Source: Cryobacterium sp. SO1 (GTDB taxonomy: Bacteria > Actinomycetota > Actinomycetes > Actinomycetales > Microbacteriaceae). From it: 64,000 nt of DNA. Position numbers and translations under genes: made by a program. The notes under the pieces are model-generated. The model saw only the letters and a list, made by a program, of their open reading frames with translations, was not told where the DNA came from and did not search any database. The stretch lies in the NCBI RefSeq assembly GCF_004210215.2, contig NZ_CP067394.1, positions 1,240,001 to 1,304,000 on the forward strand, in the 5' to 3' direction. This document shows, in pieces, positions 16,342 through 61,094 of the stretch. Position 1 is the stretch's first letter, and every line of letters starts with the position of its first letter.

Positions 16342-16782
16342 GTTGGTCGAGCCTGTCGAGACCTGGTGACGTGCGCTCGGGTCGTCCCCGACCGTTGGTC
16401 GAGCTTGTCGAGACCTGGTGAGGTTGTCTCGCGGGGTCTCGGCAGTCTCGGCAGCGGGGTGGTGCGTTCTCGAGGTCGTCTTGCGGGGTCTCGACGGGCT
16501 CGACCAGCGGGGTGGTGCGTTCTCGAGGTCGTCTTGCGGGGTCTCGACGGGCTCGACCAGCGGGGTGGTGCGTTCTCGAGGTCGTCTCGCGGGGTCTCGA
16601 CGGGCTCGACCAGCGGATGCGTCGCGACCGATCGTTGGTCGAGCTTGTCAGACCTGGTGGCGTGCGCTCGGGTCGCGCCCACGCGTTGGTCGAGCTTGTC
16701 GAGACCCCGTGAGATCGACTCCACAGGTCTACTTCGACAGGCTCAGCACGGCGTCGACAAGTTCGACCAGCGAGATGGTTGG
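16342..16782. repeat. Array of GGTCGAGCYYGTCGAGACC repeats with a 53-bp tandem core
   Basis: The 470-bp gap between nei and the DUF1844 gene is filled with copies of GGTCTCGACRRGCTCGACC in both orientations. Around 16452-16616 three 53-bp units repeat in tandem (starts at 16452, 16505, 16558, with a fourth unit beginning at 16611). Other copies begin near 16344, 16395, 16636 (with a deletion) and 16684, and a degenerate one lies at 16733-16770. No open frame here looks like a gene. The same family occurs at 45618-45960 and inside scpB. Confidence 0.9.
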
Positions 16783-41919: not shown

Positions 41920-41944
41920 TTGATCGAGCTTGTCGAGATCACGG
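41920..41944 (+). repeat. Dispersed GTCGAGCTTGTCGAG-type repeat inside the rRNA spacer
   Basis: TTGATCGAGCTTGTCGAGAT differs by two bases from the element TTGGTCGAGCTTGTCGAGAC found in the nei, 5S and scpB arrays. Confidence 0.75.
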
Positions 41945-45617: not shown

Positions 45618-45950
45618 CTGGTCGAGCTCGTCGAGCGCTGGTCGAGCTCGTCCAGACCCCGCGACACGACCCACGGACGCACCCCTCCCGCTGGTCGAGC
45701 TCGTCGAGGCCCCGCGACACGACCCGCGGACGCACCCCTCCCGCTGGTCGAGCTCGTCGAGACCCCGCGACACGACCCGCGGACGCAACCCCTCCCGCTG
45801 GTCGAGCTCGTCGAGACCCCGCGACACGACCCGCGGACGCAACCCCTCCCGCTGGTCGAGCTCGTCGAGACCCCGCGACACGACCCGCGGACACGCACGC
45901 CGCCGGCTCCGGCCCCGCACCCCCGTCACCTGGTCTCGACGAGCTCGACC
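45618..45950. repeat. 53/54-bp tandem array between the two 5S genes
   Basis: Units starting CTGGTCGAGCTCGTCGAG begin at 45618, 45638, 45691, 45744, 45798 and 45852; the last intervals are 53-54 bp. An inverted unit follows at 45930-45950. The sequence after the core (ACCCCGCGACACGACCCGCG) is homologous to the array at 16452-16616 read on the other strand. There is no convincing gene; long open frames here are repeat artefacts. Confidence 0.9.
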
Positions 45951-58497: not shown

Positions 58498-59415
58498 GTG
58501 AATCGCATACGGATCGAGGACAGCCCAGTGGCGCGTAAGACGGATAGCCGGACGCAGCTTCCCGGACTCGAAGAGCTGCCGACCGGTGCGACCGGCCGTC
58601 CCATCCAGGTGTTCGACGAACCCGCGCCGCTGAAGAGCCACGGCCCGGCCCGCATCGTCTCGCTGTGCAACCAGAAGGGCGGCGTCGGCAAGACGACGAC
58701 GACCATCAACCTGGGTGCCGCCCTGGCCGGCTACGGCCGCCGCGTGCTCGCCATCGACTTCGACCCGCAGGGCGCCCTGTCGGCCGGTCTCGGCGTGCCC
58801 ACCCACGACGTCACCACCATCTACGACCTGCTCCTGAGCGGCTCCAAGGACCCGCACGAGGCCATTCAGCAGACCTCGGTGGAGGGCCTGGACATCATCC
58901 CGGCCAACATCGACCTCTCCGCAGCGGAGGTGCACCTGGTCAACGAGGTCGCCCGCGAACAGATCCTGGCCCGGGTGCTGCGCAAGGTCTCCAACGACTA
59001 CGACGTGATCCTCATCGACTGCCAGCCGTCGCTGGGCATCCTCACCGTGAACGCGCTCACCGCCAGCCACGGCGTGCTGATCCCGCTGGAGTGCGAGTTC
59101 TTCGCCCTGCGTGGCGTGGCCCTGCTCATCGAAACCATCGACAAGGTGCGCGACCGGCTCAACCCGGCCATCGAACTCGACGGCATCCTGGCGACCATGT
59201 ACGACTCCCGCACCCTGCACTCTCGTGAGGTGCTCGAGCGGGTCGTCGACGCGTTCGGCGACCGGGTGCTCGACACCGTCATCGGCCGTACCGTGAAGTT
59301 CCCGGATGCCAGTGTCGCCGGGATCCCGATCACCGAGTTCGCGCCGGAACACGCCGCCGCCAAGGCCTACAAGCAGGCGGCGCGGGAACTGATCCAGCGT
59401 GGCGCGGTCGCCTAA
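58498..59415 (+). CDS. parA: ParA-family ATPase linked to scpAB
   Basis: A 305-aa Walker-type ATPase. An N-terminal extension of about 50 residues (NRIRIEDSPVARKTDSRTQLPGLEELPTG) precedes the deviant Walker A CNQKGGVGKTTTTINLG (residues 57-73), then DFDPQGALSAGLGV, and Walker B DVILIDCQPSLGIL. This is the Soj/MinD-like paralogue next to scpAB in actinobacteria, not the parAB pair near the origin. Likely helps position chromosome or condensin. A second GTG at 58528 is an alternative start. Confidence 0.92.
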   Translation: MNRIRIEDSPVARKTDSRTQLPGLEELPTGATGRPIQVFDEPAPLKSHGPARIVSLCNQKGGVGKTTTTINLGAALAGYGRRVLAIDFDPQGALSAGLGVPTHDVTTIYDLLLSGSKDPHEAIQQTSVEGLDIIPANIDLSAAEVHLVNEVAREQILARVLRKVSNDYDVILIDCQPSLGILTVNALTASHGVLIPLECEFFALRGVALLIETIDKVRDRLNPAIELDGILATMYDSRTLHSREVLERVVDAFGDRVLDTVIGRTVKFPDASVAGIPITEFAPEHAAAKAYKQAARELIQRGAVA

Positions 59416-60352
59416 GCGGCTGTCGGCCCCGGCCTCCGCCCTGGCGACCACCGCCACGGCTGCAACCGGCAGGGCCACCACCGGCAGGGCCTCGACCGGC
59501 AGGGCCGGAACCGGCACGGCCAAAACAGGCACGGCCGGCACCGACTCGCTCGACGACGCCGGCACCGCCGCGCCGGGCTTCTCCGTGGCCCTGCAGAACT
59601 TCGAGGGTCCGTTCGACCTGCTGCTCTCGCTGATCGGCAAACACGAACTGGACATCACCGAGATCTCGCTGAGCCGGGTCACCGACGAGTTCATCTCCTA
59701 CCTGCGCGGGCTGGATGCCGCGGAGGAGCTCGACCAGGCCACGGAGTTCCTGGTCGTGGCGGCCACCCTGCTCGACCTCAAACTGGTGGGCCTGCTGCCG
59801 CAGGGCGAGCTGGTGGATGCCGAGGACGTGGCGCTGCTGGAGGCCCGCGACCTGCTCTTCGCCCGGCTGCTGCAGTACCGGGCGTTCAAGACCGCGTCGG
59901 CGTGGTTCCTCGAGCACCTCGACCACGAGGCCACCCGGCACGTGCGCTCGGTGCGGCTGGAGGAGAAGTACCGCACGACGACGCCCGAGCTGGTCTGGAC
60001 GTTGTCGCTGGGCGACTTCGGCGCGTTGGCCGCCCTGGCGCTGACGCCCCGGGAGCTGCCGACCGTGGGGCTGGAGCACCTGCACGCGCCGCTGGTGAGC
60101 ATCCGGGAGCAGGCGGCGATCGTGGTTGCCATGCTGCGCGCCAATCAGAGCCTGACGTTTCGGGAGCTGATCGTGGATTGCGCCGAGAAGGGGCTCGTGA
60201 TCGCCCGTTTTCTGGCCGTGCTGGAGCTGTACCGGCACGGCGCCCTCACCTTTGACCAGCTGGAACCGTTGGGTGAGCTCAGTCTGCACTGGGACGCCGA
60301 GGGCTGGTCGGATGACAGTCTTGCGAATTTGGGAGCCGACTATGACGCTTGA
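59399..60352 (+). CDS. scpA: Condensin kleisin subunit ScpA
   Basis: Kleisin that bridges the SMC heads. The 317-aa protein begins with a low-complexity region: residues about 23-47 are five repeats of TGRA[TSG]. The conserved domain starts at SVALQNFEGPFDLLLSLIGKHELDITEISLSRVTDEFISYL, with ATEFLVVAATLLDLKLVGLLP, and ends with a winged helix. GTG 59399 overlaps parA by 17 bases; a start after the repeats would be possible only at non-standard codons. Overlaps scpB by 11 bases. Confidence 0.94.
   Translation: MARSPKRLSAPASALATTATAATGRATTGRASTGRAGTGTAKTGTAGTDSLDDAGTAAPGFSVALQNFEGPFDLLLSLIGKHELDITEISLSRVTDEFISYLRGLDAAEELDQATEFLVVAATLLDLKLVGLLPQGELVDAEDVALLEARDLLFARLLQYRAFKTASAWFLEHLDHEATRHVRSVRLEEKYRTTTPELVWTLSLGDFGALAALALTPRELPTVGLEHLHAPLVSIREQAAIVVAMLRANQSLTFRELIVDCAEKGLVIARFLAVLELYRHGALTFDQLEPLGELSLHWDAEGWSDDSLANLGADYDA
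59465..59539 (+). repeat. 15-bp tandem repeat in the 5' part of scpA
   Basis: ACCGGCAGGGCC-type units start at 59465, 59480, 59495, 59510 and 59525 and encode TGRAT, TGRAS, TGRAG, TGTAK and TGTAG. Confidence 0.85.
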
Positions 60353-61094
60353 TGCCAGCACTGCCGCAGTAGAGACAGAGGATCACAGCTCGACAGGCTC
60401 GACCGATCGTTGGTCGAGCTTGTCGAGACCTGGTGACGGGGTCTCGACAGGCTCGACCAGCGAGATGGGCGCGCCCGAGAGGTCGGGTCGCGGGGTCTCG
60501 ACAGGCTCGACCAGCGGCGGGGTCTCGACCAGCGGAGGGGCAGCGGCGGCCATTGAGCGGCGGCTCGAGGCGATCTTGATGGTGGCGGATGAGCCGCAGA
60601 GCCTGGTGCACTTGGCCACCGCGGTCGGGCATCCGCTGGTCGGCGTGCGTGAGGCCATTCTGCGGCTCGTCGCCGACTTCGACGGGGTGCACGGCACCGT
60701 GCGGCGCGGCTTCGAACTGCGTGAGGTTGCTGGCGGCTGGCGCATCTACGTGCGCGCCGAGCACGACCCGGTGGTGGCCGATTTCGTCTACACGCAGAAC
60801 CCCAGCCGGCTCTCCCAGGCCGCCCTGGAGACCGTCGCGGTGATCGCTTACAAGCAACCGATCAGCCGCGGCGCGGTAGCCTCGATTCGGGCCGTTAACG
60901 TCGACTCGGTCGTGCGCACCCTCCTGGGCCGCGGATTGATCACCGAGGCCTTCACCGATAGCGAGACCGGCGCGATCAATTACGCCACCACCGACCTGCT
61001 GCTTGTGCAGCTGGGAATCAACTCGCTTGACGAGTTGCCACTAATTTCGCCGTTGCTCGCCGACGGTGCGAACGGATTCGAGGATCTACCATGA
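60342..61094 (+). CDS. scpB: Condensin subunit ScpB with repeat-derived N-terminus
   Basis: Winged-helix partner of ScpA in the SMC complex. The 250-aa protein is about 50-60 residues longer than usual. The normal domain starts near residue 67 (AAAIERRLEAILMVADEPQSLVHLATAVG) and includes RGFELREVAGGWRIYVRAEHDPVVADFV, LSQAALETVAVIAYKQPISR and the second winged helix with LLGRGLITEA. Residues 16-65 (STGSTDRWSSLSRPGDGVSTGSTS...GVSTGSTSGG) are encoded by five copies of the dispersed GGTCTCGACAGGCTCGACC repeat. ATG 60342 overlaps scpA by 11 bases; ATG 60578 is an internal alternative that would cut into the first helix. Confidence 0.93.
   Translation: MTLDASTAAVETEDHSSTGSTDRWSSLSRPGDGVSTGSTSEMGAPERSGRGVSTGSTSGGVSTSGGAAAAIERRLEAILMVADEPQSLVHLATAVGHPLVGVREAILRLVADFDGVHGTVRRGFELREVAGGWRIYVRAEHDPVVADFVYTQNPSRLSQAALETVAVIAYKQPISRGAVASIRAVNVDSVVRTLLGRGLITEAFTDSETGAINYATTDLLLVQLGINSLDELPLISPLLADGANGFEDLP
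60388..60536. repeat. Dispersed palindromic repeats inside scpB
   Basis: Copies of GGTCTCGACAGGCTCGACC and its complement begin near 60388, 60410, 60440, 60494 and 60520. The family is the same as in the arrays at 16342-16782 and 45618-45950. Here the array keeps the reading frame open. Confidence 0.88.

Follow-up and report, generated by a model that had tools for sequence, protein, structure and literature searches.

A dispersed intergenic repeat of Cryobacterium lies in frame in the N-terminal tail of ScpB and inside several other proteins

Introduction

The scpB gene of a Cryobacterium strain raises the question of whether a repeat that lies mostly between genes can become part of a protein, and what would keep it there. 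The gene was examined in a stretch of 64,000 nucleotides, called the window throughout, from a genome of 4,068,634 bp. An earlier note on this DNA had proposed that a dispersed repeat entered the scpB frame and supplied new sequence to the N-terminus of the condensin subunit. We followed up that proposal in the window, in its genome and in related genomes.

Results

The repeat unit and its position in scpB

The repeat GGTCTCGACAGGCTCGACC matched the window 17 times at up to three mismatches, compared with 0.09 matches expected, and 17 matches were reached in none of 100 shuffles, which rules out chance or low complexity as their origin. Exact copies of the 19-mer number 26 in the whole genome. 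In full, the unit measures about 53 bp and consists of GGTCTCGACRRGCTCGACC plus a spacer of about 34 bp, with a unit spacing of 52-56 bp. Because the unit extends this far, the scpB spacer SEMGAPERSGRG also resembles the repeat, being similar to the spacer of intergenic arrays such as L161 and L154; units of coding and non-coding copies are similar. Given a 54-bp unit in scpB with such a spacer, residues 16-65 are therefore mostly repeat-derived. The total of five copies counted in the earlier note stands, with the composition of three forward copies, one inverted copy and one truncated copy. The frame is kept through the 250-residue product, confirming that the repeat lies inside the scpB reading frame (Table 1).

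Within the window, the repeat is otherwise non-coding, as had been claimed: two further arrays and a weak lone match at 41922 lie outside the genes called by the codon model. The claim does not hold for the genome, in which copies were found in genes for HrpA, a RecQ-like helicase and an OleB-OleC-like protein (OleBC), and a near-copy in ThrRS. The 19-mer core is free of stop codons in all six frames. By inspection, and in a unit register of our choosing, unit sequences start with GGTC and the other ends vary, often reading CGCGG or CACGG. Five loci of genome G004 (L278, L282, L286, L289 and L296) show longer array periods of about 116, 127 and 151 bp, which suggest composite higher-order units. 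An apparent strand bias among the G004 copies was dropped as a probable artefact of output order, forward matches preceding inverted ones, as comparison with G000 suggests. Rfam gave two matches only at E ≤1, mir-1307 (22.1 bits, cut-off 69) and gyrA RNA (18.4, cut-off 45), both below cut-off.

The host gene is scpB by both domain content and synteny. Its product matches SMC_ScpB (PF04079) with 138.6 bits over a cut-off of 27.4 at residues 74-233, so that the domain downstream of the repeat is intact as the earlier note had stated, and scpA, named from its own sequence without a family search, adjoins it in the list of open reading frames. The NCBIfam model TIGR00281 scores 83.1 bits, slightly below its cut-off of 89.2.

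Table 1. Parts of the scpB locus and other repeat arrays of the window (window coordinates)
Feature	Position	Strand	Basis
Non-coding array of scpB-type repeat	16345..16706 (about)	.	19-mer scan, codon-model gene calls
Non-coding array of scpB-type repeat, 53/54-bp units	45621..45950 (about)	.	19-mer scan, codon-model gene calls
scpA	59399..60352	+	ORF list, codon-model gene call; stop codon overlaps scpB start
Shine-Dalgarno GGGAG	60331..60335	+	6 nt 5' of scpB ATG; read from sequence
scpB, 250 aa (P0001)	60342..61094	+	Translation; PF04079 at residues 74-233
Repeat-derived tail section, residues 16-65	60387..60536	+	Repeat matches, translation; predicted disordered
Forward copy, 3 mismatches, read STGST	60386..60404	+	19-mer scan, translation
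Inverted copy, 1 mismatch, read SSLSR	60412..60430	-	19-mer scan
Single complete 54-bp unit (19-mer + spacer), read GVSTGSTSEMGAPERSGR; its 19-mer (60440-60458) exact	60440..60493	+	
Forward copy, exact, read VSTGST	60494..60512	+	19-mer scan
Truncated forward copy GGTCTCGACC	60521..60530	+	Read directly from sequence
Conserved ScpB domain PF04079	60561..61040	+	Pfam profile match

Start site, reading frame and predicted structure of the tail

ScpB was found in 76 of 80 relatives searched, including 47 of the 48 of the same genus. Of 48 Cryobacterium loci (own included), 46 were analysed; G001 and G009, in which the exact anchor motif is missing, were left out. At every one of the 46 loci a Shine-Dalgarno-type motif and a start codon stand 5' of the tail, and tail and core share one reading frame. 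In the tails of the clade that carries the repeat, all 22 forward copies share one phase (VSTGST-type) and all 7 inverted copies share one phase (SSLSR), a common frame that openness does not force because the 19-mer is stop-free in all six frames. Spacings between same-orientation neighbours in these tails are 27, 54, 90, 108, 180 and 342, every one divisible by 3. Non-coding spacings, taken from 53 sampled loci outside the genes found to carry copies, fall into the classes 0, 1 and 2 mod 3 in 38, 58 and 60 cases, and the counts for spacings of 52, 53 and 54 bp are 19, 21 and 17. As the ten tails share descent, their frame and spacing counts are not independent events and do not amount to a formal test. 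The conserved ribosome-binding site and ATG together with the kept frame, set against the mixed 52/53/54-bp spacing of non-coding arrays, therefore indicate that the repeat in the ScpB tail is very probably translated.

If translation started downstream instead, the repeat would be a leader outside the protein. The codon model alone does place the scpB start at 60579, because the repeat codons are atypical, and according to PMC3733652 many of the REPs published at predicted 5' ends of genes may be such cases. The earlier note gave this internal ATG as 60578, one nucleotide off. It encodes Met80, however, which falls within the first helix of the core (model helix 66-81) and behind R73, E76 and A77, residues invariant in 42 aligned sequences. 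The only in-frame starts between ATG 60342 and the core are TTG 60420 and ATG 60465, and even ATG 60465 translates copies. With start site and frame kept in 46 of 46 tails, we consider a downstream start extremely improbable and place the scpB start at ATG 60342.

An AlphaFold2 model was used for order versus disorder only, because its whole-model pTM was just 0.39. Its pLDDT was 38-43 in blocks covering residues 1-60 and above 90 in blocks covering residues 71-110, and no secondary structure appeared before residue 66. The tail up to about residue 60 is thereby predicted to be disordered.

Repeat-derived tails are confined to one clade

Comparison of the ScpB N-termini revealed repeat-derived tails at 10 of the 46 congeneric loci and at none of the other 36. 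In a tree of scpB core DNA, tail excluded, the ten form one group with a support of 100/100, and one change accounts for the distribution; the tail of one member, G023, has no copies by strict count and two by a one-mismatch scan. Absence from congeners outside this clade supports the proposal that a dispersed repeat was the source of new in-frame ScpB sequence. Counted from the conserved ATG, tails measure 29-153 residues in the clade and 13-53 in the other 36. The companion claim, that the repeat replaced a usual short N-terminus, was not borne out: repeat-free congeners have variable tails of their own, which are unrelated and overlap the shorter clade tails in length but are often shorter. 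Among the 120 relatives listed in a search of public ScpB sequences, 18 have a repeat-frame peptide in the tail.

ScpB cores identical over 182 residues in G004, G023 and the metagenomic P0017 and P0018 carry tails of 153, 60, 39 and 39 residues, respectively; tail length therefore changes far faster than the core. G004 ScpB, in which 6 forward and 2 inverted copies were detected, has 335 residues, and the P0017 and P0018 proteins have 221, with flanks nearly as in G004 and a single SSLSR peptide. These short tails would fit in-frame recombination between two copies of a G004-type tail.

The tail might also have been kept for a selected function in ScpB, such as tuning of Smc-ScpAB assembly, with the repeat as an adaptive source of length. 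Its retention in all ten clade members would fit a useful tail, as would array sizes that vary on identical cores. Neither length nor sequence is conserved within the clade, however, the tail is predicted disordered, and the shorter tails of repeat-free congeners suffice. We regard a selected function as quite improbable, and the tail would rather be near-neutral filler. Essentiality of scpB is not to be assumed here, because smc of Corynebacterium is deletable without apparent growth phenotype, as a passage of PMC11898615 records.

Genomic position of the repeat and the predicted RNA hairpin

We grouped the copies in 115 sampled loci into 126 clusters, of which 33 lie in convergent gaps, 62 in unidirectional gaps, and 3 in divergent gaps, while 15 fall within a called gene and 13 at an edge. 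The intergenic bases of the same loci amount to 10597 convergent, 36583 unidirectional and 6960 divergent; in these loci, picked for their repeats and with gene calls from our codon model, the repeat is therefore over-represented in convergent gaps and under-represented in divergent ones. Gene 3' ends lie at a median distance of 41.5 bp, with at most 50 bp in 76 of 128 cases, and gene 5' ends at a median of 154 bp, with at most 50 bp in 9 of 68. In the broad sense of a REP, the repeat is intergenic and located near 3' ends. With 33 bp between it and the scpA stop, the scpB array follows the same 3'-end rule as the intergenic copies; it is coding only because the scpB start overlaps the scpA stop. 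Exact copies of a 17-mer range from 8 (G010) to 429 (G004) in 12 congeners, with 299 in G026 and 0 in G036, and at least one exact copy is present in 36 of 299 genomes of a family sample.

The mRNA hairpin expected in the earlier note is predicted for this locus: none of 200 shuffles folds as well as the window scpB tail, whose z is -3.9. In this fold, which began at 60330 with upstream context absent, the ribosome-binding site and the ATG are unpaired. The prediction extends to just half of the clade, with z at or below -3.3 in 5 of 10 tails and at or above -1.2 in the other 5 (40 shuffles per tail), and fold z does not differ between the clade and 33 other scored tails (Mann-Whitney p 0.48). 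These data bear on the idea that the repeat is kept for a job in DNA or RNA, as a REP-like hairpin on the scpAB mRNA or as a protein binding site, its translation being incidental. The strong fold in the window would fit, as would the clustering behind genes (convergent and unidirectional versus divergent gaps), which REPs share in the positions described in a section of PMC3733652. A hairpin requires inverted copies, however, and of the 7 genomes with a copy in the RecQ-like gene, 6 have just one there. We consider such a job unlikely and take the scpB hairpin as a by-product of inverted copies.

Copies in other proteins

At 40 stretches at repeat sites of the own genome, most copies were intergenic and some stood in open frames, including those of HrpA, the RecQ-like helicase and the OleB-OleC-like linker; relatives contributed additional in-frame copies in MenB, IleRS and HsdM. 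In-gene copies are a small minority among the sampled copies. Across 15 genomes, the repeat-derived peptides were VEPVET and VSTGST in the HrpA loop, VSTGST or VSTSST in the RecQ-like loop, and VEPVET and GLDKLD in the OleB-OleC-like linker. Copies with at most one mismatch were present in 8, 7 and 11 of the 15 genomes for HrpA, RecQ-like and OleBC, respectively, the remaining rows showing related peptides or none, and anchor-to-anchor lengths ranged over 19-67, 10-46 and 45-129. A lone RecQ-like copy is the state in 6 of 7 cases. At L136 (G000:C1, about 152937-153063), the linker between the hydrolase and AMP-ligase parts of an OleB-OleC-like fusion consists largely of copies reading VEPVET. 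In public OleBC sequences, a repeat-frame peptide was seen in 24 of 117 located linkers among the 120 relatives listed, so that most OleBC linkers are without it.

The ThrRS and MenB copies in G002 came from a census that covered 118 stretches from G000, G002 and G004 (379 copies). A census of G026 (38 loci, 162 copies) turned up a single gene with an internal copy (RecQ-like), a C-terminal copy and a match judged to be chance. The IleRS (G026) and HsdM (G020) copies were found through protein matches outside the census, in fragments below the full-length family cut-offs. MenB in G002 (L272, G002:C10, about 125558) is the cleanest fresh case of a recent event: the copy is present in G002 only among 14 genomes (compared with L365-L377), and MenB without it has 306 residues in the other 13. 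In one comparison, the filled and empty sites differ by a block replacement with a net gain of 15 nt and without clear target-site duplication, and the copy falls where the solved structure of M. tuberculosis MenB (1q51) has a gap. ThrRS loops contain VST-type sequence in several species, the own included (GGTCTCGACAAGCTTGACC).

Weaker and less certain candidates may include a solute-binding protein (L173), a sensor-kinase-like protein (L140), a malate synthase (L139) and an MFS tail (L170); the Pfam match of L140 is below cut-off, and its G046 relative L301 likewise has copies. At L307 (G026:C33), the repeat provides the final residues GRACRDPAR and the stop of a protein with an RHGQTAWN motif, which we take to mark a phosphoglycerate mutase-like family. 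Apparent internal copies at L158, at position 906 of L267 and at L357 were judged to be chance and left uncounted, being weak matches in well-scoring coding stretches; the L267 and L357 products resemble EF-G. Candidate N-terminal extensions at L157, L168, L172, L240, L266, L267, L284 and L295 were excluded from the counts for uncertain starts.

Of 13 events defined by gene family and frame, 11 read VSTGST or VEPVET (binomial p 0.0002), and 8 of 10 did so after removal of three events from biased protein matches (p 0.003). Because both frames were picked post hoc and the events were listed by hand, the preference for them is only suggestive.

Discussion

The repeat probably landed in the scpB frame and would be passively incorporated there as near-neutral filler in a tolerant, disordered tail. 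The steps might have been as follows. A repeat of about 53 bp builds up just 3' of stop codons; behind scpA it would have landed in the overlapping scpB start, most simply once, in an ancestor of the ten-member clade. The insertion could stay translated with its stop-free 19-mer core and an N-terminus already tolerant of variable tails. The array would then have lengthened and shortened by whole codons, often by 54 bp at a time, filtered mainly by whether the frame was kept. Other proteins may have received the copies in their loops, linkers and tails through the same process. We infer slippage or unequal recombination between copies as the mode of expansion.

A bolder reading is that arrays of about 54 bp act as a genus-wide, frame-safe tuner of length, in which recombination shifts tails, loops and linkers of ScpB, ThrRS, IleRS, the helicases and OleBC by whole units and selection uses the variation; we think this distinctly doubtful. 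With 0-429 exact copies per genome among those counted and the same protein available with and without the repeat, the choice between neutral filler and raw material can be put to the test in culture. Passive incorporation, the favoured reading, takes the conversion of repeats to protein beyond Rickettsia, where it is best known, to an actinobacterial genus that is free-living and comprises many species. It also carries a warning for annotation: the ScpB N-terminus is very probably real yet repeat-derived, and codon-based start prediction therefore misplaces the start here.

Literature searches with the literal repeat, its inverse and the peptide VEPVETP retrieved no matching paper, and none was found that joins REP sequences with Microbacteriaceae; the 'palindrom-' of a Cryobacterium paper refers to CRISPR in the text containing that word (PMC7381226). 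REPs in actinobacteria as such are not new, since RepRanger predicts many in other Actinomycetota, Cryobacterium being unnamed in its main text (PMC12306157).

Among known systems, GTAG/CGTC REPs lie mostly in intergenic regions near 3' ends of convergent or unidirectional genes, and a minority lie in genes, many for DNA repair and some for tRNA synthetases, as sections of PMC3733652 on their location describe. The Cryobacterium repeat shares the 3'-end intergenic majority and the in-gene copies in helicases and tRNA synthetases, but by inspection has no GTAG or CGTC end tag. The Y1 transposase (PF01797), the sole transposase family covered, matched none of 37 same-genus genomes (own included) and 2 of all 60 searched, both from other genera; in a control, PF01797 matched 5 of 14 known genomes. 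With neither a PF01797 match in the genus nor such a tag, a RAYT-driven REP is not supported. Enterobacterial RU elements (Delihas 2007) are likewise short repeats whose open frames have become fused to genes, differing, as compared by description with the relevant part of PMC2759123, in being MITE-like units of 103-168 bp from enterobacteria.

The closest parallel is provided by the Rickettsia palindromic elements (RPE) of 100-150 bp, reported from Rickettsia and Wolbachia in the portions of PMC3767692 and PMC10969869 that deal with them. According to these, RPE and the Wolbachia elements are dispersed, intergenic as well as in frame inside genes, found at orthologous sites and located in solvent-exposed parts. 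The Cryobacterium repeat is likewise dispersed, intergenic and in frame inside genes; compared by description, it differs in its shorter unit of about 53 bp, well outside the RPE length range at a spacing of 52-56 bp, in its tandem arrays, in its use of several reading frames and in its actinobacterial host. By this analogy, the scpB tail is best read as RPE-like passive incorporation in an actinobacterium, without a detected RAYT-type transposase.
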